From the NCBI GenBank assembly GCA_021821885.1, contig JAKARO010000008.1, positions 1 through 64,000 of the forward strand: a DNA stretch of 64,000 bases. The letters run 5' to 3'. The position numbers and the translations under genes are program-made. This DNA comes from Pseudomonadota bacterium (lineage in GTDB: Bacteria > Pseudomonadota > Gammaproteobacteria > Acidithiobacillales > Acidithiobacillaceae). Position 1 is the first letter of the stretch. Each line of letters begins with the position of its first letter. Below are positions 3,665 through 24,172 of the stretch, piece after piece. The notes beneath the pieces were generated by a model. The model was not told where the DNA came from. It ran no database searches and worked only from the letters and a program-made list of their open reading frames with translations.

Positions 3665-4237
3665 TCAGGACATGTCCGCCATGCCGGTAATCATCGCGGC
3701 GATTTCGATGAGCTTTTTGCCCTGGTTCATGGCCACCCGCCGTAACCGCCGATAGGCTTCTTCCTCGTCGATCTGGAAATCACGCATCAGGATGCCTTTC
3801 GCTTTTTCAATGATCTTGCGTTCGCTCAGCGCCGCGCGGGTATCGGTGAGTTCCTGCCGCAGCTGGCGGTATTCGGCATAGCGCAGGGCCGCGACTTTCA
3901 GGATCGGAGCAATGTCGCGGGCAGCAATGCCGTGCGCCACATAGGCCGCAACTCCTGCGCGGATCGCCCGGCGCATGGTTTCTTCATCCTCTGGTGCGCC
4001 AAGCACCACCACCGGCAGTTCCAGGGTTTCACTCAGGAAGACGATGTGTTCCAGGACATCGCGCTCAGGAGAGCCGGCATCGGCGATAATGACTTCTGGC
4101 TGGCACTCCTCGATCCGCTGCCAGGACAGCGTCTTCCACGACAGCACCATGGCGATGCTGTGTCCCTCCTCACTGAGGGCGTTGCGCAAAATGGCCGCCC
4201 GTGCAGGATCGTCATCGATGAGGACGATACGGTACAT
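3665..4237 (-). CDS. nasT: NasT, ANTAR-domain antitermination response regulator
   Basis: 190 residues with a receiver-like N-terminus (MYRIVLIDDDPARAAIL) and a C-terminal ANTAR RNA-binding domain (about 128-186, from ALSERKIIEKAKGILMRDF to KKLIEIAAMI). In the NasS-NasT system, NasT released from NasS in the presence of nitrate or nitrite binds paired hairpins in nascent leaders and prevents termination. It is the last gene of the nirB operon, 4 bases after cbiX, so it probably amplifies its own synthesis. Its partner NasS is encoded separately at 15201-16364. A longer upstream frame exists, but the family start MYRI at 4237 is preferred. Confidence 0.9.
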   Translation of the reverse strand: MYRIVLIDDDPARAAILRNALSEEGHSIAMVLSWKTLSWQRIEECQPEVIIADAGSPERDVLEHIVFLSETLELPVVVLGAPEDEETMRRAIRAGVAAYVAHGIAARDIAPILKVAALRYAEYRQLRQELTDTRAALSERKIIEKAKGILMRDFQIDEEEAYRRLRRVAMNQGKKLIEIAAMITGMADMS

Positions 4238-4241
4238 GCGG

Positions 4242-4601
4242 TCAGGACAGGAAGCGGACGACGGCAGCGCGCACGGGTCCAGACTCTCCCGCCGGCAGAT
4301 CCACAGTGATGGAGCAGTCCGGGAGTTCCTGCAGCAGGCTGTCGACAGTTTCCGGCAAATCCTTTCGCAAATGGCGGCCTCTACTCCAGAACAGGGGCGA
4401 AATGCGGAAGCTCCGCGCACCCCGGGCGTAGGCGTCGCGCACAGCCTCCGCCAAAGCAGGAGCCCAAAGCTCCAGGTAGCACAGTATTACCACACGCCCA
4501 GGATCGGCCTTTTGCAGGTCGCTGGCAATCTGCTCAAAAGGCTCGCGCCATTCTGGATCGCGTGATCCGTGTGCGAGCAGGAGATGGACTGGGGCCTTCA
4601 T
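4242..4601 (-). CDS. cbiX: Short CbiX/SirB-type sirohydrochlorin chelatase
   Basis: 119 residues, a single-domain CbiX-like protein. Such chelatases insert Fe2+ or Co2+ into sirohydrochlorin. Visible landmarks are LLAHGSRDP with His11 near the N-terminus and the second metal-binding histidine in SPLFWSRGRHLRKDLP. The length corresponds to the short form found in archaea and some bacteria, not the two-repeat enzyme. The ATG overlaps the cobA stop by 4 bases. Its place behind nirB and cobA argues for siroheme iron insertion. No oxidase/ferrochelatase CysG N-domain gene is seen here, so the precorrin-2 oxidation step must come from elsewhere. Confidence 0.8.
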   Translation of the reverse strand: MKAPVHLLLAHGSRDPEWREPFEQIASDLQKADPGRVVILCYLELWAPALAEAVRDAYARGARSFRISPLFWSRGRHLRKDLPETVDSLLQELPDCSITVDLPAGESGPVRAAVVRFLS

Positions 4602-5389
4602 TGCTGGCAGCCTTGCCAGGCCTGGTTCTGCTGCCGTTCCCTGGGCAGCCACGCCAGAACCCCGGCAAGATCCACCACCGAACCGATGATCAGGACCGCG
4701 GGGCTGCCAATTCCGGCTCCCTGGATGGCGGCGGGCAGTTCCGCCAGCGTGGCCTGTACCTGCCGCTGGGCCAGGGTTGCCCACTGTACCGCCATGGCGG
4801 GAACGTCGGGAGACATGCCACCGGCGAGCAGGCCGGAACAGATCTTTGCGACCTGCGCAATGCCCATATAAATAACCAGTGTATCTGCTGCATCGGCATA
4901 CCGGGACCAGTCCGTGGCAAGGCTGCCGCGCGCTTCGTGACCTGTGCAGAAAAGCACGGAACGGCTGCGCTGGCGGTGTGTGAGGGGAACCCCCGCGTAC
5001 GCGGCGGCGGCCATGCCGCTGCTGATGCCAGGAACAATCTCATAATCGATGCCGGCCGCACGGAGTGCCAGACACTCCTCGCCACCACGCCCAAAGACCA
5101 GCGGATCGCCGCCTTTCAGGCGCACTACCCGCAGTCCCTGTCGCGCCGCGCGAACCAGGAGCCCGTGAATGCGCAACTGGGAAGTGGATTTCTGCCCACC
5201 CCGCTTGCCAACGTCGACCTGCCGGCAGGCCGGCGATGCCAGGGAGAGGATTTCCGGGTTGGCAAGCGCATCGTAGAAAACAATTTCGGCCTCTGCCAGC
5301 CGCCGGGCGGCGCGCAGGGTCAAAAGATCGGGATCGCCAGGGCCGGCGCCAACAATAGAGACAAAGGGGCGTGCAGGGAGGATCGTCAT
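4598..5389 (-). CDS. cobA: Uroporphyrinogen-III C-methyltransferase
   Basis: 263 residues. It transfers two methyl groups from S-adenosylmethionine to uroporphyrinogen III to make precorrin-2, the entry to siroheme. The SUMT signatures are clear: SIVGAGPGDPDLLTLRA near residue 12 and VVRLKGGDPLVFGRGGEE near residue 90. The enzyme is the single-function form without the CysG oxidase/ferrochelatase part. It lies between ybiB (13-base gap) and cbiX (4-base overlap) in the nitrate operon, supplying the cofactor of NirB. Confidence 0.92.
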   Translation of the reverse strand: MTILPARPFVSIVGAGPGDPDLLTLRAARRLAEAEIVFYDALANPEILSLASPACRQVDVGKRGGQKSTSQLRIHGLLVRAARQGLRVVRLKGGDPLVFGRGGEECLALRAAGIDYEIVPGISSGMAAAAYAGVPLTHRQRSRSVLFCTGHEARGSLATDWSRYADAADTLVIYMGIAQVAKICSGLLAGGMSPDVPAMAVQWATLAQRQVQATLAELPAAIQGAGIGSPAVLIIGSVVDLAGVLAWLPRERQQNQAWQGCQQ

Positions 5390-5402: not shown

Positions 5403-6419
5403 TCAGGCGGCAATGCAGGAAAAGGAGGCATGCAGCAGAGCGTCTGCGGCACCAAGGTCTGGACAGCGGCCGCTGAGCACGAGCAGCGTCGCCGCCTGCC
5501 CGGCAATCGCTCCGGGTAGGGGACGGTGACCGCCCAGGACCGCCAGAACAAAATCACGGCAGTCTTCTGCGGTGCTGGCGGGCAGATCGGGGGTGTGCAG
5601 CAGGGGATGCGGATCTTTTTCCAGGAAAACCCAGGCATGGCCATCCTGGCACACACGCAGTTCCGGCCGTCTTTTCGGATTGGCGAATGCCTCCCCTTCT
5701 GTGGCGCGCAGACAGAGGGCTGTGATCCCCGCGCGTACGAAAAAATCTTCCAGGCGCTGCAGATAGGGGGGGTGGGTGACCGCCGCGCAGACGATGGGCT
5801 CGCCGGGGGCGAAGGGATGCAGGATTTTCAGGAGCGTGTGAACGCTGGAGCGGATCCCCATTTCTTCCCGCAACGCCAGAATTTTTGCCAGGCCCGGCTG
5901 CCAGGCAGAAAGCGGGAGATACGCCAGGCCCTGCAGATGCAGCAGCAGGTCCGCGTCCTGCAGTGTACTGGCCTGCGCAAGGCCCAGCTGGTCCAGGACC
6001 TGCACGGTATGCACCCGGCCTTTGGGAGGGTGGTCCTGCGTAGGGACGGCAGGAAGAGAACCGGTATCCGGGCCATGAATCAGAACGGGTACGCCGCAGC
6101 GGGTGAGCACAAGGGCAAGCAGGGGCAGGAGATTGGCCTGTCGCCGCGTGCCATTGTAACTTGCAAAGACGACCGGACGAAGGTGATGCGTTCGCGGCAG
6201 GGTGGGCATCCGGTGGCGAATGGCCTCGTGAAAACCCTGCAGCTCACCCGCACTCTCGCCCTTGATGCGGTAGGCTACCCAGAAGGCTCCGGCAAGCAGG
6301 TCCGGCAGCTCACCATCAAGCCAGGCGCCGAAAAGTTCCCGTGCCTCGTTCTGGTCCAGATCTTCGGCATGCTCCCGTCCGCGGGCCACCCGGCCGAGAT
6401 GGTTTGTCCACGTTTTCAT
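5403..6419 (-). CDS. ybiB: YbiB-like anthranilate phosphoribosyltransferase homolog
   Basis: 338 residues of the glycosyltransferase family 3 fold related to TrpD; the best fit is the YbiB/TrpD2 group, which binds nucleic acid in E. coli rather than making tryptophan. Visible landmarks are the helical N-terminus (LFGAWLDGELPDLLAGAFWVA), RPVVFASYNGTRRQANLLPLL and the region GVPVLIHGPDT. The ATG overlaps the nasA stop by 4 bases, so it is translationally coupled inside the nitrate operon. A role there is not established; conserved linkage would suggest help for the large molybdoenzyme or regulation. Confidence 0.75.
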   Translation of the reverse strand: MKTWTNHLGRVARGREHAEDLDQNEARELFGAWLDGELPDLLAGAFWVAYRIKGESAGELQGFHEAIRHRMPTLPRTHHLRPVVFASYNGTRRQANLLPLLALVLTRCGVPVLIHGPDTGSLPAVPTQDHPPKGRVHTVQVLDQLGLAQASTLQDADLLLHLQGLAYLPLSAWQPGLAKILALREEMGIRSSVHTLLKILHPFAPGEPIVCAAVTHPPYLQRLEDFFVRAGITALCLRATEGEAFANPKRRPELRVCQDGHAWVFLEKDPHPLLHTPDLPASTAEDCRDFVLAVLGGHRPLPGAIAGQAATLLVLSGRCPDLGAADALLHASFSCIAA

Positions 6420-9208
6420 GAAGCCTCCGCATATTCCCTGCGCAGCATCTGCTGAATCTCTGGCCGGCAGGAACCGCACTCGCTGCCAGCGCCACAGGCA
6501 GCCAGGACGGCCTCCAGGCTCCGGGCACCCGCATGGATGACCTGCCGGATAGTCTTTTCATCAATGCCCCTGCAGGCGCAGACGCCACGGGAGTGCTCCC
6601 GGCCACGCAAATCCCCGGGCACGCGCGGCGCCAGCAGGGCCAGACGAATGGGCTGTACCGGGTAGGCTTCCAGCAGAAGCTGCCGCAGCCAGTCCAGGGT
6701 CTGCAGGTCACCCCAGAGGCGCAGGCCATGCAGATGGCCCTCCCGGATTTGCAGGCGTTTGCTGATGCCATTGCCGGGGTCTTCATAGAGCAGCGTCTCG
6801 GGTCCGGCCAGACCCAGACACTGGTCCCATTCCCCGGCCAGGCCGGTGCGGGGCGCCTGCTCCGCCGCCACGCGCAGCAGGACGGCTTCCTGGTCCCCGG
6901 CGCCGAGACGGCAGAGACTGGCATAGGGAAAGTCCTTTGCCAGTTCGCGCAGTCCGGAAAGGCCTGTCCCATCGCCCATCCGCAAGAGAACGGCCGCCTC
7001 CCAGGGAAGCCCTGCCGCCTCAATCTGCACGGCGGTATGCTTGAACTCCGGTTCTCCGGAATAGGGGTCGATGGCAGACAGCGTAAGGGAATTGCAGAGC
7101 GCCGCCGGGGCATGGCGCTGACCAAAATGCATCGGCACGAACAGTAGCCCCGGCTGGAGAGATTCGTCCAGACGCAGGCGGTACAGGGCCTGCCCGCGCC
7201 TGCTGCGCACCCGCACCAGTTGTGCTTCCTGAAACCCCAGGCGCTGCGCATCGTGCGGATGGATATCGAGAAAGGCCTCCTCTGCACTGGCAAAGAGGCC
7301 CGCAACGCGCCCGCTGCGTGCCATGCCATGCCACTGGTCCCTCAGTCTGCCGGTGGTCAGGCGCCAGGGGTAGCGAACGTCGATTTCCTCGGCCACCCCA
7401 AGGTGCGCCGGGGCGTGAAAGCGCGCGTGGCCATCCTCCGTGGGGAAGATCCCGTCCCCATACAGACGGTTCAGTCCCTGTCGCGCTCCCGCGGGGAAAG
7501 GCCACTGCTGGGGACCGTCCTGGTCGAGGGTGACAATTTCGAGGCCCCCGATATCGAGGTCCTGGCCTACGGTGCAGCGCCGGTATTCGGCAAAAATGCT
7601 GGCGGTATCCTGGAAGGGGAACATGCGCGCCGCGCGCTGGCGCCACGAAGCATCCCGGGAATCGGGCAGCGCCGTCCCCAGACGGTCGAGAGCCGTGCCC
7701 AGGGCATGGGCAAAACCGCAAAAAATCTGCCAGTCGGGAATCGCCTCACCCGGGGGAGGGACAGCCGCCTGGAGATGCGAAATCCGGCGCTCGGAATTGG
7801 TCATCAGGGCCTCGCGTTCTCCCCAGCTGGCTGCGGGCAGAACCCAGTGCGCGAAGGGCATGGTCTCGCCGTCCAGATAGCTTTCCTGCAAAACGACCTG
7901 CTCCGCCCGCTGCAGGGCGCGTTCCACCTGCTGGCGGTCTGGCAGGGAGAGAACAGGATTGGTGCAGGTGATCCAGATGGCGGCAATCTCGCCCTGTTCC
8001 ATGGCCTGGAAGAGCGGCACGGCCGTGAGCCCGGGTTCCGGGTTCAGGGTATCAATCCCCCAGATCCCGGCGATGGTGGCCCGGTGCTCCGGATTGGCGA
8101 CTTCCCGGTGCCCGGGCAGCAGGGCGGGCATGCCGCCCGTCTCCCGGCCGCCCATGGCATTGGGCTGGCCGGTCAGGCTGAATGGTCCCGCGCCTGGACG
8201 GCCAATCTGTCCGGTTGCCAAATGGAGATTGATCAGGGCAACGTTGTTGTCGGTTCCGTGGGCAGACTGGTTCAGCCCCTGGCACCACAGGGAGAGGGCG
8301 GCCCGGGCAGTACCAAAATATTCGGCGGCCCGGTGCAGGTCGTCCGCGGAGATCTGGCAGATCTCCGCGACCCGCTGTGGCGTGTATTCCTGCACGAGCC
8401 GTTTCAGTTCCGTCCAGCCCGCGGTATGCTCCCGGATGAACGCCCCGTCCAGCCAGTTGTTCCAGACCAGCAGATGGAGCATGCCATGAAACAGGGCCAC
8501 ATCGGTTCCGGGAAGAATGGGCAGGTAGAGATCCGCGATGCCGGCCGTCGCCGTACGTCTGGGATCGACGACGATAATGCGCAAGTCTGGACGTTTGGCC
8601 CTGGCGGCCTCTATGCGCCGGAAAAGGATGGGATGGGCATAGGCAACGTTCGCCCCGACAATGAACAGGCAGTCCGCCGCTTCCAGGTCTTCATAGCTGC
8701 AGGGCACGGAATCCATGCCCAGACTCCGCTTGTAACCGGTGACCGCCGAGGCCATGCAGAGCCGTGAGTTGGTATCGATATGGTTGGTGCCGAGGAAGCC
8801 CTTGGCCAGTTTGTTGACGACATAATAGTCTTCGGTAGGCAGCTGCCCGGAAACGTAAAAGGCCAGGGCCTGGGGTCCCCGATCGTGGTAGAGTGTGGCC
8901 CAGTCCCCGGCGATCTGCTCCAGGGACTGATCCCACGACAGCGGTTGCCAGGTTCCTTCCTTCTGGCGCTGCAGCGGTGCGACGGCGCGGCCGGGCCCAT
9001 GCACGGTCTGGTGCAGCGTGTTTCCCTTGCTGCACAGCTGCCCGAAATTGGCGGGGTGGCCGGGATCCCCCCGTACGCCCAGAATCTGCGCGCCGTCGTG
9101 TTCGATGAGGACTCCGCAGCCGGTACCACAATAGGGACACACCGACCTGCACAGCCTGTGTGGCTGGCTGTACAGCGCCTGGCGGTCTTCTTCAGGGCTG
9201 GCGTTCAT
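6416..9208 (-). CDS. nasA: Assimilatory nitrate reductase, catalytic subunit
   Basis: 930 residues, a cytoplasmic molybdopterin enzyme reducing nitrate to nitrite. The N-terminal [4Fe-4S] ligands are Cys24, Cys27, Cys31 and Cys59 (SVCPYCGTGCG and QLCSKG). The molybdenum-site region SRLCMASAVTGYKRSLG follows, and the C-terminal molybdopterin-binding domain begins near LTTGRLRDQWHGM. The last 60 residues form an extra BFD-like [2Fe-2S] domain (VCACRGIDEKTIRQVI, ending SECGSC), as in NasA proteins that take electrons without a separate NasC. There is no Tat signal. It overlaps nirD and ybiB by 4 bases at each end. Confidence 0.92.
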   Translation of the reverse strand: MNASPEEDRQALYSQPHRLCRSVCPYCGTGCGVLIEHDGAQILGVRGDPGHPANFGQLCSKGNTLHQTVHGPGRAVAPLQRQKEGTWQPLSWDQSLEQIAGDWATLYHDRGPQALAFYVSGQLPTEDYYVVNKLAKGFLGTNHIDTNSRLCMASAVTGYKRSLGMDSVPCSYEDLEAADCLFIVGANVAYAHPILFRRIEAARAKRPDLRIIVVDPRRTATAGIADLYLPILPGTDVALFHGMLHLLVWNNWLDGAFIREHTAGWTELKRLVQEYTPQRVAEICQISADDLHRAAEYFGTARAALSLWCQGLNQSAHGTDNNVALINLHLATGQIGRPGAGPFSLTGQPNAMGGRETGGMPALLPGHREVANPEHRATIAGIWGIDTLNPEPGLTAVPLFQAMEQGEIAAIWITCTNPVLSLPDRQQVERALQRAEQVVLQESYLDGETMPFAHWVLPAASWGEREALMTNSERRISHLQAAVPPPGEAIPDWQIFCGFAHALGTALDRLGTALPDSRDASWRQRAARMFPFQDTASIFAEYRRCTVGQDLDIGGLEIVTLDQDGPQQWPFPAGARQGLNRLYGDGIFPTEDGHARFHAPAHLGVAEEIDVRYPWRLTTGRLRDQWHGMARSGRVAGLFASAEEAFLDIHPHDAQRLGFQEAQLVRVRSRRGQALYRLRLDESLQPGLLFVPMHFGQRHAPAALCNSLTLSAIDPYSGEPEFKHTAVQIEAAGLPWEAAVLLRMGDGTGLSGLRELAKDFPYASLCRLGAGDQEAVLLRVAAEQAPRTGLAGEWDQCLGLAGPETLLYEDPGNGISKRLQIREGHLHGLRLWGDLQTLDWLRQLLLEAYPVQPIRLALLAPRVPGDLRGREHSRGVCACRGIDEKTIRQVIHAGARSLEAVLAACGAGSECGSCRPEIQQMLRREYAEAS

Positions 9209-9525
9209 GGCTGCTCCCCTGGCAGCCCCAGCCAGATCTCTTCTCCTTCTGTCCGGACCGGGAAGGTGCGTACGCAACCCTGATCCGGTGGTAACGCCTC
9301 GCCGCTACAAAGATCGATCTGCCAGTTGTGCAGGGGGCAGAACACGGTCGTGCCGGACACAAAGCCCTCGGAGAGAGGGCCACCGCGATGGGGACAGCGG
9401 TTGTGTACGGCAAATAGCGTTCCCTCCTCGTTGCACAGGACCGCAATCTGGCCGGCAGGCGTCTCCACATAACGGCCGCCGCCCGGCGGAACTTCATTCA
9501 CCTTGCCCAGAGGAAACCATTGCAT
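9205..9525 (-). CDS. nirD: Nitrite reductase small subunit, Rieske type
   Basis: 106 residues with a Rieske [2Fe-2S] centre: Cys44 and His46 in RCPHRGGPLSEG, Cys63 and His66 in FCPLHNWQID. NirD partners NirB in cytoplasmic NADH-dependent reduction of nitrite to ammonium. It follows nirB by 12 bases and overlaps nasA by 4, so the three reductase proteins are made from one message. Length is typical of NirD. Confidence 0.92.
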   Translation of the reverse strand: MQWFPLGKVNEVPPGGGRYVETPAGQIAVLCNEEGTLFAVHNRCPHRGGPLSEGFVSGTTVFCPLHNWQIDLCSGEALPPDQGCVRTFPVRTEGEEIWLGLPGEQP

Positions 9526-9537
9526 TTCTTGTCCTCC

Positions 9538-11976
9538 TTACGCCGAAACACGCCGCAGGGGCGCAGCATGGATATCCAGCCGGCCCGCAACGGCTTCTGC
9601 CCATGGGTCCCGTTCCTGCAGGATGGCAAAGTCCAGCCGGGCCGCCAGCTCCTCTCTCTGCACGGGATCCTCGACCACCCGCTCCCGGATGCGGGCCATG
9701 CCCACGCGTTCGACCCACGGGGCCGTACGCTCCAGGTACTGCGCTTCTTCGCGGTACATCTGTAAAAAGGCCTTCGCGACCAGGATCACCTCGGCTTCGC
9801 TTTTAACCCTGGTGAGGAGATCTGCGGCACGCACCTTCATGCCGCCATTGCCACCGATATAGATTTCCCAGCCAGAATCGACACCAATCACGCCAAAGTC
9901 CTTGACAGTGCTTTCGGCGCAGTTGCGTGGACAGCCCGATGCCGCCAGCTTGACCTTGTGGGGTGCCCACATCCGTTCGAGATTTTTTTCCAGATCGATA
10001 GCGAGCCGTGTACTGTCCTGCACCCCAAAGCGGCAAAATTCCTGGCCCACGCAGGATTTCACCGTCCGCAGGGCTTTTCCGTAGGCATGTCCGGATGGCA
10101 TACCGAGTTCCGCCCAGATCGCCGGCAATTTCTCCTTGGGGACACCCAGCAGATCAAGACGCTGGCCGCCGGTAAATTTCACCATGGGGACGGCGTGACG
10201 TTCTGCCACTTCGGCAATCCGTTTCAGTTCTGCTGGCGTGGTCACGCCACCATAGATGCGGGGAATGACCGAGTAGGTGCCATCTTTCTGGATATTGGCA
10301 TGGGCGCGCTCGTTGATGAAACGTGCCGAGGCGTCATCGTACCCCTCGGCTGGCCATGCGGTACGTACATAGTAATTGACTGCCGGCCGGCAGCCCGCGC
10401 AGCCGCCGGGATTGCGCCAGTCCAGAAAACGGAAAACCTCGCGCACGGAGAGCAGCCTTTCTTGCTGGATGGCATCCCGTACTTCCTGATGGCTATAGTC
10501 GGTACAGCCACACAGGGCCTTTTTCCGTGCGCTGCTGCCGTATACGCCACCCAGGGTGCTGGCCAGAAGCTGCTCTACGAGTCCTGTACAGGAACCACAG
10601 GAAGCGCTGGCCTTGGTACATTTGCGCACTTCTTCCAGCGTAAAGAGGCCGTCGCGGATGGCGCTGATGATCTGCCCCTTGCTGATGCCATTACAGCCAC
10701 AGATCTCCGCCGTATCCGGAAGCCGTGCCACCTGGTTGGCCCCGGCATGCCCGGCGTCCCCCAAATGGGTCTCGCCAAAGAGGAGGTGATCGCGCAGGGC
10801 CGAAATATCGGTCTCTTCCCGCAGGTGCTCAAACAGCCATGGACCAATACTGGTATCGCCATAGAGGAGAATCCCCTTGATCCTGTGTTCCTGGAGAACA
10901 ACTTTTTTGTAGATACCCTGGTGCGCATCAAGGAGGGTGAGTTCTTCCGTGTTGTCCCCGCCGCGGAAGTCTCCGGCCGAAAACAGCTCGATTCCCGTTA
11001 CCTTCAGCTTGGTGCTGGTCACCGATCCCTCATATCGCATGCGTCCATACTCGGCCAGGTGATTGGCGGCCACTTTTGCCTGTTCGAAAAGCGGTGCAAC
11101 CAGACCATAGGTCATTCCCCGATGCTGCACACATTCGCCTACAGCGTAGATGCGTGGATCGTAGGTCTGCAGGGTGTCGTTGACCAGGATACCCTGTTCG
11201 CAGGCCACGCCTGCCGTCTGGGCAAGACCGGTCCGGGGCCGGATACCCACCGTCATGACCACGATCCGCGCCGGAATACTGCTGCCATCCTGGAAACGCA
11301 GGCCCTCTACACGCCCTTCGCCCAGCACGGCAGCGCTTTCCCGTTCCATCAGAAAGCGGATGCCGCGGGCTTCCATCGCCTCCTGCAGCATGGCTCCACC
11401 ACGCCCGTCCAGCTGCCTGTCCAGGGGCCAGGCCCGGCGGTGGACGACGGTTACCTGCATGCCGCGCGCATTCAGGCCGTGCGCCACCTCCAGACCCAGA
11501 AGACCGGCACCGATGATGACCGCCCCGCCGCCGCCAGTACTCACCTGGGTGAGTGCCTCGACGTCCCGCATGTCGCGATAGCTGTATACGCCGGGGAGAT
11601 CATTGCCGGGAATCGGAGCCATGGCCGCCGCGGCACCGGTCGCAAGCAGGAGGCGGTCGTAGGGTGCCGTTTCCCCGCTGGCGGTGATCACCCGGCGGTG
11701 AACACGGTCGATCTGCACTACCGGACTGCCGGTGCACAGCGTAATCCCATGCCCGGCGTACCAGTCGTAATCGTTCAGGATGGTTTCTTCCATCCGCATC
11801 TCGCCTGCGAGCACCGGAGTGAGCAGAATCCGGTTGTAGTTGGGATGGGGTTCATCCCCAAAGACCGTGATCTCGTAGAGATCGGGTGCCATCCGGAGCA
11901 GTTCCTCAACGGTGCGGATTCCCGCCATGCCGTTTCCCACCACCACCAAGCGCGCTTTTCGTGCCCTGTTGCCCAT
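9538..11976 (-). CDS. nirB: Nitrite reductase [NAD(P)H] large subunit
   Basis: 812 residues. The N-terminal half is an FAD/NAD(P)H oxidoreductase (VVVGNGMAGIRTVEELL; second dinucleotide fold VIIGAGLLGLEVAHG). A BFD-like [2Fe-2S] domain follows (ICGCNGISKGQI, KASASCGSC), and a siroheme/[4Fe-4S] domain carries the paired cysteines CVGQEFC and ASGCPRNC. It performs the six-electron reduction of nitrite to ammonium. First gene of the operon; its ATG lies about 20 bases after a leader terminator, with GGAG upstream. Expression therefore depends on readthrough of that terminator. Confidence 0.95.
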   Translation of the reverse strand: MGNRARKARLVVVGNGMAGIRTVEELLRMAPDLYEITVFGDEPHPNYNRILLTPVLAGEMRMEETILNDYDWYAGHGITLCTGSPVVQIDRVHRRVITASGETAPYDRLLLATGAAAAMAPIPGNDLPGVYSYRDMRDVEALTQVSTGGGGAVIIGAGLLGLEVAHGLNARGMQVTVVHRRAWPLDRQLDGRGGAMLQEAMEARGIRFLMERESAAVLGEGRVEGLRFQDGSSIPARIVVMTVGIRPRTGLAQTAGVACEQGILVNDTLQTYDPRIYAVGECVQHRGMTYGLVAPLFEQAKVAANHLAEYGRMRYEGSVTSTKLKVTGIELFSAGDFRGGDNTEELTLLDAHQGIYKKVVLQEHRIKGILLYGDTSIGPWLFEHLREETDISALRDHLLFGETHLGDAGHAGANQVARLPDTAEICGCNGISKGQIISAIRDGLFTLEEVRKCTKASASCGSCTGLVEQLLASTLGGVYGSSARKKALCGCTDYSHQEVRDAIQQERLLSVREVFRFLDWRNPGGCAGCRPAVNYYVRTAWPAEGYDDASARFINERAHANIQKDGTYSVIPRIYGGVTTPAELKRIAEVAERHAVPMVKFTGGQRLDLLGVPKEKLPAIWAELGMPSGHAYGKALRTVKSCVGQEFCRFGVQDSTRLAIDLEKNLERMWAPHKVKLAASGCPRNCAESTVKDFGVIGVDSGWEIYIGGNGGMKVRAADLLTRVKSEAEVILVAKAFLQMYREEAQYLERTAPWVERVGMARIRERVVEDPVQREELAARLDFAILQERDPWAEAVAGRLDIHAAPLRRVSA

Positions 11977-11997: not shown

Positions 11998-12069
11998 AAA
12001 GGCGTAGCCAGCCATAAATGCTGACGACGCCTTTGCCGTTTCACATGCGGACAACCAGTAAGGCTGTCC
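11998..12069 (-). terminator. Attenuator leader of the nirB operon
   Basis: The minus strand folds into AAAGGCGT/ACGCCTTT (12034-12027 with 12005-11998), with an inner CAGC/GCTG stem and a run of six T, an intrinsic terminator just upstream of the nirB ribosome-binding site. Preceding it are a GGACAGCC/GGTTGTCC hairpin with a TTACT loop (12069-12049) and an alternative stem using CCG/CGG (12050-12036). Its extension to CGGCAA shares 12033-12034 with the terminator arm. This arrangement suits NasT-dependent antitermination. The classic hexaloop with A1 and G4 is not obvious here, unlike in the narK leader. Confidence 0.7.
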
Positions 12070-12079
12070 CGCAAATAAA

Positions 12080-12095
12080 AGCAAATCCTATGCCA
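12080..12095 (-). promoter_or_regulatory. Sigma-54 promoter of nirB
   Basis: Minus-strand TGGCAT-AGGAT-TTGCT matches the RpoN consensus TGGCAC-N5-TTGCW at all but one position, with the invariant GG-N10-GC spacing (G12094/G12093 and G12082/C12081). Predicted initiation near 12069 falls at the first base of the leader hairpin, which supports the call independently. Confidence 0.75.
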
Positions 12096-12177: not shown

Positions 12178-12194
12178 GGCACCCATATGGTGCA
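12178..12194. promoter_or_regulatory. NtrC-like enhancer site upstream of nirB
   Basis: Minus-strand TGCACCATATGGGTGCC is a dyad of the form GCAC-N7-GTGC, the NtrC-binding pattern. It lies about 110-120 bases before the predicted nirB start, the usual enhancer distance for a sigma-54 promoter, between the porin stop codon and nirB. The same dyad could instead serve as a weak terminator for the porin gene, but no T-run follows. Confidence 0.5.
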
Positions 12195-12197
12195 TTT

Positions 12198-13439
12198 CTA
12201 GAAGGTCGCATTGACAAAGACCCATGCGCCAGCGGTATTCACGCCATAGTGGCTGCGACGGTAGTCGGCATACTGTACACCCGCAGTCCAGTGGCGTGAA
12301 AAACGGTGAATCGCGGAAAGGTCAATTTCATGCCCGTAGGACTGGCCATGATCCGCGCTGCGAAAATCGTAATAGGTGGCCTGCAGGGCAGTGCCCAGCA
12401 CCTTGCCGGCCAGGGTGAAATAGAGGCTGCGCAGGCCCGTGCGTGGTGTGGTCAGAAACACCTCGGCCCAGCCGTTGAAGGCATGCTTGGTGGCCAGGGG
12501 TGTCTGAAAGCCATAGCTGCCATTCCGGCTGCCCATGACCATGTAGTTGGCGGCAATCCCGGCCCAGGACCAGCGAATGCCGCTGCTGAGATGGTAATAC
12601 TGGGTATTGATCCGGGAACTTCCGCCATCGTAGGGCAGCTGCCGTGCATAGGTGAAGCCGTAGGGAATCTGGAGTCTGGCGCCCACAGGAATGCTGCCCT
12701 GCACCCGCATGCCAAGAGTCTGGCTGTTACAGACCTGGGCGCTGCCCTGCAGGAAACAGGCGGCCGCTCCCGGAATGGCACTTCTGGCCTGGTTTCCGTA
12801 CCAGTACCCAAAGGCCTGGACATGGAACAGGGATGAGGGCTGCCAGTGGACTTCTCCCAGGAAAGTCCGGCTGGGCACATTTTCGTCAAGGATATTTTTG
12901 ATGCGCCAGATATAGGCAGTATAGATACCCCAGGCACCAGGAAGACTTTCTCCCGCAGAAATGGCGTCGAAGCTTTGCGGGGTTTGCCGGAAGCCGACAG
13001 CGCCGACAAAGCGCTGGTCGTCCAGCGCGATCTCCTGGCGGCCAACCCGCAGATCCAGCCCGGCCACACCGTGATACTGCAGGAAAGCCTGGTTGATATT
13101 GGCTTCCTGCGGGTCGGGAATGACAGCGTATGCGGTTTTGCCGTTTTGGAGGCTGTTATAGTGGTTCACCATCCCGGCGACGTCGACAAACTGGAGATCG
13201 GCACTGAATCCGGCGATGGGCCTGCTGGCCAGACCCAGCAGGGTTTGTACAGTGAAGGCCTGGGCATTCCGCTTGCCGGTCTGGGACATGAACTCATACC
13301 GGGGGCGGAAACTGAGACTGACCTTGCCCTGGCCAAGGGCGGATGACAGGGGATCGCCCCAGGCGTCGGACTGGGAGAACGCTGCGGCTGCAATGGCGGC
13401 TAGCAGCACAGGAATACGGAGATGCGGGATTTTTGCCAT
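12198..13439 (-). CDS. Outer-membrane porin, alginate-export-like family
   Basis: 413 residues with a signal peptide (MAKIPHLRIPVLLAAIAAAAF, cleavage near 25-28) followed by alternating aromatic and polar strands and a C-terminal Phe (WVFVNATF), the hallmark of a beta-barrel. Segments such as FRPRYEFMSQTGKRNAQAFT and LRVGRQEIALDDQRFVGAVG match the alginate-export-type porin group. It follows narK by 74 bases, so it probably lets nitrate or nitrite cross the outer membrane; that role is inferred from context. The frame is open far upstream, but the signal peptide fixes the start. Confidence 0.8.
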   Translation of the reverse strand: MAKIPHLRIPVLLAAIAAAAFSQSDAWGDPLSSALGQGKVSLSFRPRYEFMSQTGKRNAQAFTVQTLLGLASRPIAGFSADLQFVDVAGMVNHYNSLQNGKTAYAVIPDPQEANINQAFLQYHGVAGLDLRVGRQEIALDDQRFVGAVGFRQTPQSFDAISAGESLPGAWGIYTAYIWRIKNILDENVPSRTFLGEVHWQPSSLFHVQAFGYWYGNQARSAIPGAAACFLQGSAQVCNSQTLGMRVQGSIPVGARLQIPYGFTYARQLPYDGGSSRINTQYYHLSSGIRWSWAGIAANYMVMGSRNGSYGFQTPLATKHAFNGWAEVFLTTPRTGLRSLYFTLAGKVLGTALQATYYDFRSADHGQSYGHEIDLSAIHRFSRHWTAGVQYADYRRSHYGVNTAGAWVFVNATF

Positions 13440-13513: not shown

Positions 13514-14914
13514 TTAGTCGGTGAGCATGGAGTAGCTGCGTTCCCCGGAAGTCCTCTGGATACCGGGTTCTGCCGCAATCCTGGCCCAGGGCAGCCAGTG
13601 GCGGCGCAGGGCCGAAACCAGCAGCAAGGCCGTGGCGCTGAGCACGGCAAAAATCCCGAAGCCCCAGTGATAGCTGCCTGTTTGTTCTTTCGCAATGCCC
13701 AGGATCACCGGCAGGTAGAAACCACCCACACCGCCCGCAGCCCCGACAATGCCGGTCATCAAGCCGGTTTTTTCTGGCCAGCGCAGAGGAACAAGCTGAA
13801 ACGTGGCGCCATTTCCCAGACCAAAAGCAGCGTACAGCACCAGAAAAAAGGCGATGCTCACGGCCAGGGTCGGGGTCCACAGGGCAAAGGTCCCATCAAT
13901 GAGACAGATCCCCGCAAGGAAGTATTGCAGGGCCCGGGCACCAGAAATGCGGTCTGCAATGTGCCCGCCCACAGGACGCAGGATGGCACCGGTCAGGGCA
14001 AAGATCCCCATCAGCATCCCCGCCTCCACTTTGGGCAGATGGTAGAGCGAGACCAGAAGCAGGCTCACGAAGGCCGACATGCCTACAAAACCGCCGAAAG
14101 TGATGGCATAGACCAGAACCAGTGCCCAGGTATCCCGCTCCGCAAGCACGCGGAAGTAGCGGGCCGGCAAAAAGACCAGGGATAGGAGCACTCCATATAC
14201 CGGCAGCATCAGCAGGGCCGCTTTTCCCTGCAATCCAAGCCAGCCTGAGGGTGCGGCGACGGCAAGAAAGGCCAGTCCCAGGAGTGTCAGTCCCCAGCCC
14301 CAGGCCGCCGGTCCCACCTTTCCGGTTTTTGGGGCACGGTCTTTTCCCCAGAACCAGAGCGCCAGTGCGGCCAGGCCGAGCAGGGGCAGAACGGCCCCTG
14401 CTGCGTGGGCCCAGCCAAAATGGCCAGCCAGGGGAGGGAAAAGGAAACCGTCAAGAACGGCGCCAATGTTCCCTGCAGCAGCAATGCCGAGAACCGTGCC
14501 CTGTATTTTTGGGGGATAGTTGCTGCCTGCCATGGGGAGGGCAACGGCAAAACTGGCGCCACCGACACCCAGCAGTATGCCCAGAAAAATCAGGGCGCCA
14601 TACCCCAGTGGCTGGGGATAGAGGAACAGGATGAGTGGAGGAATGGCAGAGACTGCAACGCCGGCCAGGGCTAGCCAGCGCCCATCCATGGCCTGATAGA
14701 GGTTGCCCATGCCAATACGCAAAATTGCGGCGGCCAGAACCGGGATGGCTACCAGGTACCCCTGCTGCATGGGAGAAAGATGCAGGCTCTGGATCATGTA
14801 GGGCGCGAGAGGGCCATACAGGAGCCAGACCGTGAAACCCGTATCAAAATAGAGAAAGCTGGCAAGCAGGGCACGCCAGTTTCCCGCCCGCAGTTGGGAG
14901 AGCATGGATCGCAT
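13514..14914 (-). CDS. narK: Nitrate/nitrite MFS transporter
   Basis: 466 residues, 12 predicted membrane helices, NNP family. Both nitrate-signature regions are present: GGASFAVALPMAGSNYPPK near 118-136 and GLGNGATFQLVPLRWPEKTG near 360, each rich in glycine. It imports nitrate, or exchanges it for nitrite, across the inner membrane. First gene of a unit with its own sigma-54 promoter and leader terminator, followed by the porin. The cytoplasmic assimilatory reductase downstream makes uptake the likely direction. Confidence 0.9.
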   Translation of the reverse strand: MRSMLSQLRAGNWRALLASFLYFDTGFTVWLLYGPLAPYMIQSLHLSPMQQGYLVAIPVLAAAILRIGMGNLYQAMDGRWLALAGVAVSAIPPLILFLYPQPLGYGALIFLGILLGVGGASFAVALPMAGSNYPPKIQGTVLGIAAAGNIGAVLDGFLFPPLAGHFGWAHAAGAVLPLLGLAALALWFWGKDRAPKTGKVGPAAWGWGLTLLGLAFLAVAAPSGWLGLQGKAALLMLPVYGVLLSLVFLPARYFRVLAERDTWALVLVYAITFGGFVGMSAFVSLLLVSLYHLPKVEAGMLMGIFALTGAILRPVGGHIADRISGARALQYFLAGICLIDGTFALWTPTLAVSIAFFLVLYAAFGLGNGATFQLVPLRWPEKTGLMTGIVGAAGGVGGFYLPVILGIAKEQTGSYHWGFGIFAVLSATALLLVSALRRHWLPWARIAAEPGIQRTSGERSYSMLTD

Positions 14915-14944: not shown

Positions 14945-15011
14945 AAGGCGTTCCCGACCGTTACCGGTCAGGAACGCCTTCGTTCCACGAAATCCCCCGT
15001 CATTGGGAGAT
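14945..15011 (-). terminator. NasT-type antiterminator leader of narK
   Basis: On the minus strand a 7-bp stem ATCTCCC/GGGGGAT encloses the hexaloop AATGAC (15011-14992), with A at position 1 and G at position 4 as in ANTAR-binding hairpins. A second stem TTTCG/CGAAG (14992-14978) shares 14978-14980 with the following terminator AAGGCGTTCC/GGAACGCCTT (14980-14945), which is trailed by TTCTGTTTTT. The two structures are therefore mutually exclusive, the layout expected for antitermination. Confidence 0.75.
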
Positions 15012-15200: not shown

Positions 15201-16364
15201 TCAGGAGCAGTCGCCAAACGGGCTGCCATCGAAGATCTCCGTGCGTCCCATGGCAATGTCGCAAGGCGTGCCCGGCAACATCCAGGGTTGGGAATGGGGG
15301 CGCATCGCTTCTTCCTGCAAGGGCAAAACGCCATCGACCGCCGCGGCCGCTCGACGGTACAGGTCGGTCCGATAGACCCGTGCTACCACTTCCCCGACGC
15401 TGGTTCCTGCTGGCCACTGTCCGGCACCCCGCATTTGCTGCGCCAGCCAGTGCCCATGCCTGCGCCAGGGATACTGCGCTGCATACCGGTAAAAGACATG
15501 AAAATCCGCCTGTTCCGGCAGGCCGGGAACCCGGCCACGCAGGGCCGCCGTTACCGCCTCTGCCGGGACATCGATGGCCCTGGCGATCCACGGTGCCGCC
15601 TCCAGACGCTGCTGCGGATGGTCCAGCCAGCGCCCAGCCGCCAGCAGGGCGCGCAGGAGCGCCTGGTGCAGTTCGGGCTCGCGTTCTGCCCAGTCCTCGC
15701 GCACGGCCAGGACCTTCTCCATGACGTTGGTCCACAGCGCATAACTGCTGAGGATAGGCTGTCCGACCCCCTCCATGGCCGCCAAACTGCCCCAGGGCTC
15801 ACCAACACAGAAAGCGTCGATCTCACCGTTGCGCAGGGCATCCACCATGTAGCGCGGCGGCACTACACAGATTTCCGCCTCGCTGTCGATCTGTACACCC
15901 GCGACACGCAACCAGTGACATAACTGGTAGTGATGGTTGGACACTGGGGAAACTACCGCAAAACGCAGGCGCTGCGGTTTTTCCCCGGTCAGCAGGGCAC
16001 GCAGGGCCCGGCCCGCCGCCCTTGGCTGGTCGGGGTTCTGCAGGCCGGCGTCGCGCAGGCGTTCATAAAGCCGGCGGCTCACGGTGATGGTGTTGCCGTT
16101 CAAGGAAAGAACCAGGCCGGTGATCACGGGGATTTTGGGGGCGGCAATCCCGAGGGTCGCCGCCATGGGCAGTGGAGCCAGGGCGTGTGCGGCCGTGAGC
16201 CCACCAAAAAGCAGATGGTCACGCAGGCTCGCCCAGGAAGGCTCCCGTTGCAGGCGAACCTGCAGGCCCTCCCGGGCAAACAGATTGAGCTCCCGGGCAA
16301 CGATCAGCGGCGCACTGTCTACCAGTGCCACATAGCCCAGTGAAAGTTCTGCATCATGCTTCAT
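15201..16364 (-). CDS. nasS: NasS, cytoplasmic nitrate/nitrite sensor
   Basis: 387 residues of the NrtA/NasS substrate-binding fold (LGYVALVDSAPLIVARELNL at the N-terminus; FCVGEPWGSLAAMEGVG near 210). There is no signal peptide, so it is cytoplasmic, as expected of NasS, and not the periplasmic NrtA of an ABC transporter; no permease or ATPase gene is nearby. NasS sequesters NasT until nitrate or nitrite binds. The start at 16364 is chosen because the fold begins there; upstream in-frame sequence lies in the leader terminator. It is the only gene of its unit. Confidence 0.85.
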   Translation of the reverse strand: MKHDAELSLGYVALVDSAPLIVARELNLFAREGLQVRLQREPSWASLRDHLLFGGLTAAHALAPLPMAATLGIAAPKIPVITGLVLSLNGNTITVSRRLYERLRDAGLQNPDQPRAAGRALRALLTGEKPQRLRFAVVSPVSNHHYQLCHWLRVAGVQIDSEAEICVVPPRYMVDALRNGEIDAFCVGEPWGSLAAMEGVGQPILSSYALWTNVMEKVLAVREDWAEREPELHQALLRALLAAGRWLDHPQQRLEAAPWIARAIDVPAEAVTAALRGRVPGLPEQADFHVFYRYAAQYPWRRHGHWLAQQMRGAGQWPAGTSVGEVVARVYRTDLYRRAAAAVDGVLPLQEEAMRPHSQPWMLPGTPCDIAMGRTEIFDGSPFGDCS

Positions 16365-23313: not shown

Positions 23314-24172
23314 AATGGACCTCCGTTTGTTTCCCGGTAAACGGTAAACGGTAAAGTATTCAAAGCGGACATTTATCGGGAGACTTCCTGTTAAAAAATT
23401 ATTCTAATATTACGAAAACACGGGAATGAAAAATTCATTTTCTGGTTAGCATTTGTTGTGCCATTAATCATAACTATTTAATATATTTATGATTTAAATA
23501 TTTTTACTTTAACATGCAACAGGAAAATATTTCCCGGCAGGAGAATTTTTTAATTTATTGTCGCCGTAAAACGACGGCGCTCAATCTCCAGGTTCCCGCG
23601 ATAGGGCGGAGAGCCTAATTTGTGCTGTTCTTAATGGGAGAAAAATCTTGCGTGGCAGCATGGCTACACATTCGCATTAATTATTAAAAAGAAGGGCCAG
23701 TAAATCCCTGTGAAGAATCACTGGTTGTGATGCAGGTATAGCCTGTTAGCGGGAGGGGGCATTTCCATGCAGATGGCCTTCAGAAACTCCACGCAATATG
23801 CCCTGAACAGAAAGGCAGGGCGATGTTATGGCGTGGTCCGCCGCGGGCGGACATCGGGGCCGGGGATCATGGGCGGTTCCGGTTTTTCTGTGCCATGGCA
23901 GATGGTCGCGCAGCGTTGCGTGTACCGGTTCCAGGAGGCGTTCGGCCTTCTGCCACTGCTGCCGCAGATCTTCGGGAAATTCTGGACGGCAGACCGCAAC
24001 GCAATTCCCGTCACGCATCCAGCGGGCCCGAGGCCTCGGGCCAGAAACGGACATGGCCGCCAAACCGGTTACCTCTGGCCTGACGGGAAGCTTTGAAGGT
24101 CGCAAGCGAGGAGTCAGCGCGTAGTAGCCGGGCAACCAGTCAAGGGCCAGACGAGAAGGCGGGCTGGAAGTC
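23314..24172. other. AT-rich promoter region and unidentified sequence
   Basis: 23330-23540 is markedly AT-rich compared with everything around it, with many TAATATT and ATTTAAAT words; it probably contains the promoter of the leftward exopolysaccharide operon. A small hairpin cgccgtaaaacgacggcg lies at about 23563-23580. From about 23740 to 24170 GC content returns to normal. Minus-strand residues such as RQQWQKAERLLEPVHATLR may be a protein relic, and the right part probably belongs to the group II intron RNA. No intact gene is visible. Confidence 0.5.

Follow-up and report, generated by a model that had tools for sequence, protein, structure and literature searches.

Organization of the nitrate assimilation locus

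The analysed window, a 64,000-nucleotide stretch of an Acidithiobacillaceae genome, contains a nitrate assimilation (nas) operon, whose genes and regulatory features are listed in Table 1. The gene order nasS-leader-narK-porin-leader-nirB-nirD-nitrate reductase-trpD2-like-SUMT-cbiX-like-nasT is maintained within the family, with nirD verified for the window alone. The narK leader lies between the nasS stop (15201) and the narK start (14914) on the minus strand, and nasT, which begins 4 nt after the cbiX-like gene, is located 11 kb downstream of this leader, behind both leaders. In genome G004, about 6 kb of extra DNA separate the porin gene from the nirB leader (L034 5571-11640).

Table 1. Genes and regulatory features of the nas locus (window coordinates)
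Feature	Position	Strand	Basis
nasS, cytoplasmic nitrate/nitrite sensor, NrtA family, upstream of narK leader	15201-16364	minus	NMT1_2 E 2e-68; NrtA/NrtC-like in PDB
Sigma54 -24/-12 promoter of narK leader, 16 bases, TGGCATGATTTCTGCT (TGGCATG-ATTT-CTGCT)	15042-15027	minus	box in 17/17 orthologous leaders; RpoN in genome
narK leader P1 hairpin, ATCTCCC-AATGAC-GGGGGAT, 7 bp, hexaloop AAUGAC (A1, G4)	15011-14992	minus	comparative
narK leader P2 hairpin, GGAAC-GAAGGC-GUUCC (G1 not A1, G4 kept), antiterminator arm	14986-14971	minus	comparative
narK leader intrinsic terminator with U tract, strong, mutually exclusive with P2	14981-14934	minus	fold and covariation
narK, MFS nitrate/nitrite transporter	13514-14914	minus	TIGR00886 E 2e-76, below model cut-off; orthologues
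Porin, Alginate_exp family	12198-13439	minus	PF13372; conserved position
NtrC-like site, GCACCATATGGGTGC, GCAC-N7-GTGC	12179-12193	minus	same place in 10/15 family members, window counted
Second sigma54 box, TGGCATAGGATTTGCT	12080-12095	minus	sigma54-box scan
nirB leader, whole	12095-11994	minus	sigma54-box scan
nirB leader first hairpin; covarying stem, non-A1/G4 loop	12047-12072	minus	comparative
nirB leader P2 hairpin, ACGGC-AAAGGC-GUCGU, canonical A1/G4	12024-12039	minus	invariant in 15 family members
nirB leader terminator, overlaps P2	11994-12034	minus	
nirB	9538-11976	minus	TIGR02374
nirD	9205-9525	minus	TIGR02378
Assimilatory nitrate reductase (NasC/NarB-like)	6416-9208	minus	
TrpD2/YbiB-like gene	5403-6419	minus	PF02885
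Uroporphyrinogen-III C-methyltransferase (SUMT)	4598-5389	minus	TIGR01469
CbiX/SirB-like chelatase	4242-4601	minus	
nasT, REC-ANTAR antiterminator, last gene of operon	3665-4237	minus	PF03861 E 8.5e-21

The original prediction named NasT as encoded in the same region as the narK leader, and nasT indeed belongs to this cluster; in the genome, which is 91% complete, no ANTAR protein other than its product was detected. Among PDB structures, NasT is best matched by EutV (6wsh), whose RNA-contacting residues R142, K143, K147, Y164, and M172 (PMC8934654) are all identical in NasT. In one genus of the family (L061 and L066), a histidine (EDDAHHRM) takes the place of the ANTAR tyrosine whose EutV counterpart stacks on G4; a narK leader from the same genus (L018) has canonical A1 and G4 in both loops.

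In Acidithiobacillus thiooxidans, an 'nrtA' gene without ABC partners was described as atypical (PMC2607301). Because NasS is NrtA-like in sequence and the starts of its orthologues (MKTDAELSLGYVAL / MAHEHSLSIGYVAL) contain no signal-peptide-like stretch as judged by eye, the orphan 'nrtA' of the Acidithiobacillus nitrate clusters is most simply explained, and most likely, as the sensor NasS.

Anatomy and conservation of the narK leader

The RNA switch upstream of narK is real and of the NasT-controlled antitermination type; it had been read correctly from a single sequence, except for one anatomical error. The first hairpin, P1, has exactly the predicted stem, hexaloop, A1, and G4, and the strong terminator with its U tract was likewise confirmed, at 14981-14944 on the minus strand. 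The error concerns the second hairpin, proposed as the stem TTTCGT/ACGAAG (14992-14978) sharing bases 14978-14980 with the terminator. Among 17 relatives only 62% of cells in this stem are paired, no more than in shuffles, nor does its covariation exceed that of shuffles, and we rejected it. Conserved instead is hairpin P2, separated from P1 by a 5-nt linker. The 3' half of P2 doubles as the 5' arm of the terminator, forming the first ~10 nt of this arm (14981-14971). The right border proposed for the element, 15011, is exact for P1, whereas the predicted transcription start lies further out, at about 15016, approximately 12 nt past the sigma54 motif and 5 nt ahead of P1, as judged from the motif. 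A scan for sigma70 promoters found no promoter-like site, in agreement with transcription from the sigma54 box.

Folding of the leader segment is more stable than that of all 200 shuffled sequences (200/200, z -5.1). In simulated co-transcriptional folding of growing transcripts, P1 forms first, P2 appears from about nt 48, and the terminator displaces P2 at nt 68-72. The full leader fold has -45.8 kcal/mol versus -29.9 kcal/mol when P2 is forced; since the terminator fold is the more stable one, termination is the default outcome and an antiterminator must hold P2.

P1 by itself is uninformative, because hexaloop hairpins with A1 and G4 and a stem of 6 bp or more number 31 in the window, both strands counted, and the evidence for the reality of the element is comparative. 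Orthologues of narK were collected from 17 other genomes of the family (64-86% identity), which was assigned to Acidithiobacillaceae because named matches to narK belong to Acidithiobacillus; 17 complete family leaders, including that of the window, were aligned. The proposed comparison of leaders among relatives yielded covariation both in P1, where 6 of 9 pairs are altered at both positions, and in the terminator (5 of 15 pairs); P2 shows one-side changes only in the family, its pairing being retained in 97.6% of cells. A class-wide set was composed of the family leaders and leaders from other taxonomic orders found with the Rfam narK RNA model. In this set, 93.9% of P1 and P2 cells are paired, which is reached in none of 500 shuffles, and the covariation score is 0.72 versus 0.26 in shuffles, where the counts should not be taken as probabilities, since the family sequences are related and the shuffle tests therefore inflated. 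Both-side changes occur class-wide in 6 of 7 pairs of P1 and 3 of 5 pairs of P2. In a control preserving kinship, in which partner columns were slid, pairing falls to 31-56%.

A terminator located between nasS and narK would also stop read-through from nasS, and A1/G4 hexaloop hairpins of similar size often occur by chance, so that one might regard the terminator merely as the end of nasS transcription and the upstream hairpin as incidental. However, P1 covaries and retains its loop, P2 pairs with the terminator arm, and the sigma54 promoter stands between nasS and the terminator in every orthologous leader aligned, which makes this explanation very improbable. Both findings that would have spoken against an ANTAR target failed to appear: A1 and G4 are not lost from the P1 loop, and the conserved sigma54 box predicts a start just ahead of P1 rather than within or after the terminator.

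Association with ANTAR proteins and a second leader upstream of nirB

We constructed a covariance model of P1 and P2 (R1) and scanned 369 genomes of the class, accepting matches with E up to 1e-3. The window's genome has a single site, the narK leader (44.7 bits). Matches were found in 45 of the 369 genomes, and 42 of these 45 encode an ANTAR protein, compared with 114 in the full set of 369 (Fisher p 5e-21), an association that is not fully separable from shared residence in nas clusters. Within the Acidithiobacillaceae, a genome has either both the narK orthologue and the ANTAR gene or neither, incomplete assemblies aside. When an ANTAR gene lies within 20 kb of a leader, it is situated upstream in 40 of 42 cases, usually at a distance of up to 350 nt. 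The two exceptions are the narK leader of the window and a leader from one further genome, which has two. In G030, a relative from the same taxonomic order, nasT comes first, and these gene orders suggest that the shift of nasT to the terminal position of its operon is a trait of the family.

An alternative, in which the leader acts as an attenuator that binds a ligand or serves as the target of some protein besides NasT, draws on the Rfam entry for narK RNA, whose listing gives only a cis-regulatory element without an assigned protein. It has to be set against the dual hexaloop with G4 in both loops of all 49 leaders and against ANTAR genes being strongly associated with the motif and in most cases no more than 350 nt distant, and we consider it highly unlikely. 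The ANTAR antiterminator reading is supported instead, and the element upstream of narK is very probably a NasT-dependent antitermination leader of the Acidithiobacillaceae nas operon.

A scan for sigma54 boxes led to a second leader, upstream of nirB, which is new here and appears from its sequence to be of the NasT type. The model R1, built on both hairpins, missed it because its first loop is not A1/G4. Nevertheless, the first stem is paired in 100% of cells, with both-side changes in 3 of 6 pairs. The leader also matches Rfam narK RNA with E 0.002, below the gathering score. An NtrC-like palindrome is located about 100 bases upstream of its sigma54 box, from which transcription is predicted to begin near 12069; no clear NtrC site was found upstream of the narK leader in the window. 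A model of the nirB leader (R2) detects it once in the window's genome and once, with a strong match, in each of 17 relatives from two genera, and a diverged nirB leader was seen by eye in a third genus of the family. The original prediction mentioned neither this leader, nor the sigma54 promoters, nor the position of nasT. In another genome, G029 (L180 6192), a canonical P2, GCGC-AAAGGC-GCGT, follows a non-A1/G4 hairpin between nasT and narK, resembling the nirB leader. On the operon strand, sigma54-like boxes inside the operon occur only before narK and nirB; a further sigma54-like box, TGGCACAACAAATGCT, is found at window position 23463 on the minus strand.

At the first position of the P2 hexaloop, the narK leader departs from a rule regarded as fixed. 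A1 and G4 were reported as conserved in both loops (PMC3369931, PMC8934654), and mutations of A1 weaken EutV binding (PMC3369931). In P1, A1 is present in 17 of 18 family leaders and in 31 of 31 outside the family. In P2, all 31 leaders outside the family have A1, compared with 2 of 18 within it, the other 16 having G1 (Fisher p 5e-11, a value that ignores descent, which may bring the count down to one or two changes). Of the two family leaders that keep A1 in P2, one has G1 in P1. The G1 of P2 can pair with C6 to leave a four-base loop, which is more stable by about 2 kcal/mol. Each leader of the window contains exactly one fully canonical hexaloop, P1 before narK and P2 before nirB. Such an arrangement seems to fit the model in which one hexaloop is the minimal motif (PMC8934654), as opposed to the view that both hairpins are essential (PMC3369931), and these natural variants bear on the need for A1 and for both hexaloops, where the two studies differ.

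Proposed regulation and comparison with known systems

Promoter motifs, covarying hairpins, their overlap, gene order, and co-occurrence are read directly from the sequences, and the following mechanism is suggested on their basis. Nitrogen limitation would activate the sigma54 promoter, probably via NtrC; the genome contains several NtrC homologues, none above the model cut-off. The RNA would begin about 5 nt ahead of P1. Without nitrate, NasS would keep NasT bound, P2 would be transient and ousted by the stabler terminator, and RNA polymerase would halt after about 80 nt. Nitrate frees NasT from NasS in Paracoccus (PMC3795266); here, nitrate or nitrite would presumably act likewise through NasS, and the released NasT, binding the hairpins through its ANTAR dimer, would hold P2 and block the terminator, so that narK is transcribed. 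The nirB leader, having the same design, would gate nirBD, the nitrate reductase, the cofactor genes, and nasT itself.

Since nasT is the last gene, behind both leaders, and NasS is made separately, this gene order predicts positive feedback: both gates would act back positively on nasT, with the inhibitor NasS produced outside. We tentatively suggest, with somewhat less than even confidence, that NasT opens two leaders with one canonical A1/G4 hexaloop each, and that the terminal position of nasT creates a positive-feedback, possibly all-or-none, nitrate switch. If true, this would be natural evidence that a single canonical hexaloop suffices and that the purine at position 1 can be G. The feedback part has a competitor, in which NasT antitermination holds but nasT is expressed from a constitutive promoter of its own. 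Promoters within cbiX may exist; however, nasT follows cbiX almost immediately, this order is kept in all family members read, and the only sigma54-like boxes within the operon on its strand precede narK and nirB. An independent constitutive promoter is therefore rather unlikely, and the feedback arrangement remains the reading we favour.

Among known systems, the closest is NalA, which a review (PMC12830290), drawing on Romeo 2012 and Nie 2024, describes as a leader of nirBD in Pseudomonas that has a sigma54 promoter and depends on NasT, and which is probably the Rfam family P11 (RF00625). The two leaders share a sigma54 promoter, a first hexaloop hairpin, an overlapping terminator, and control by NasT, the last being established for NalA and proposed here; the P2 loop given there for NalA is AAAGGC, whereas that of the narK leader has G1. 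Unlike NalA/P11, the narK leader lacks an additional hairpin separating P1 from P2, and it gates narK, with nasT inside the gated operon.

A scan of the whole window with Rfam models at gathering scores found nothing. The narK leader matches the full-length P11 model below its threshold (E 1e-5, 31.3 bits versus gathering 70). Family relatives match narK RNA (RF03032) at 36 bits versus gathering 43.2, and the narK leader of the window itself has no match to this model. The likeness to RF03032 includes location before narK in some relatives, the sigma54 box, the P1 loop AACGGC, and the P2 sequence; the difference is G1 in P2 of the narK leader. Both Rfam models start with the bases of the sigma54 -24/-12 promoter (GGCaC...UUGCU), as seen in the Rfam alignments of window positions 15053-14947 and 12094-12024 and of L006 and L018. 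Promoter DNA is thus treated as RNA in the two models, and each family resembles NasT leaders. A search of the literature collection used here found no paper on the narK RNA motif.

In Klebsiella, a nas operon is likewise controlled by ANTAR antitermination in response to nitrate, through the nasF leader and NasR; that regulator is a one-component NIT-ANTAR protein, in contrast to the REC-ANTAR NasT plus NasS found here. The eut leaders of Enterococcus faecalis and their regulator EutV (PMC3369931, PMC8934654) resemble the present system in the dual hexaloop, the inclusion of P2 in the terminator arm, the presence of several leaders per gene cluster, and the conserved RNA-contact residues. They differ in that EutV is controlled by phosphorylation and NasT probably by release from NasS, and in the G1 of P2 and the sigma54 promoters observed here. 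Given the matches to P11 and narK RNA and the description of NalA, the kind of leader is already known, and that of the window is a variant of it. With this variant, acidophilic sulfur oxidisers join the bacteria with NasT antitermination, and two RNA families of Rfam are suggested to be NasT leaders with a DNA promoter included in their models.
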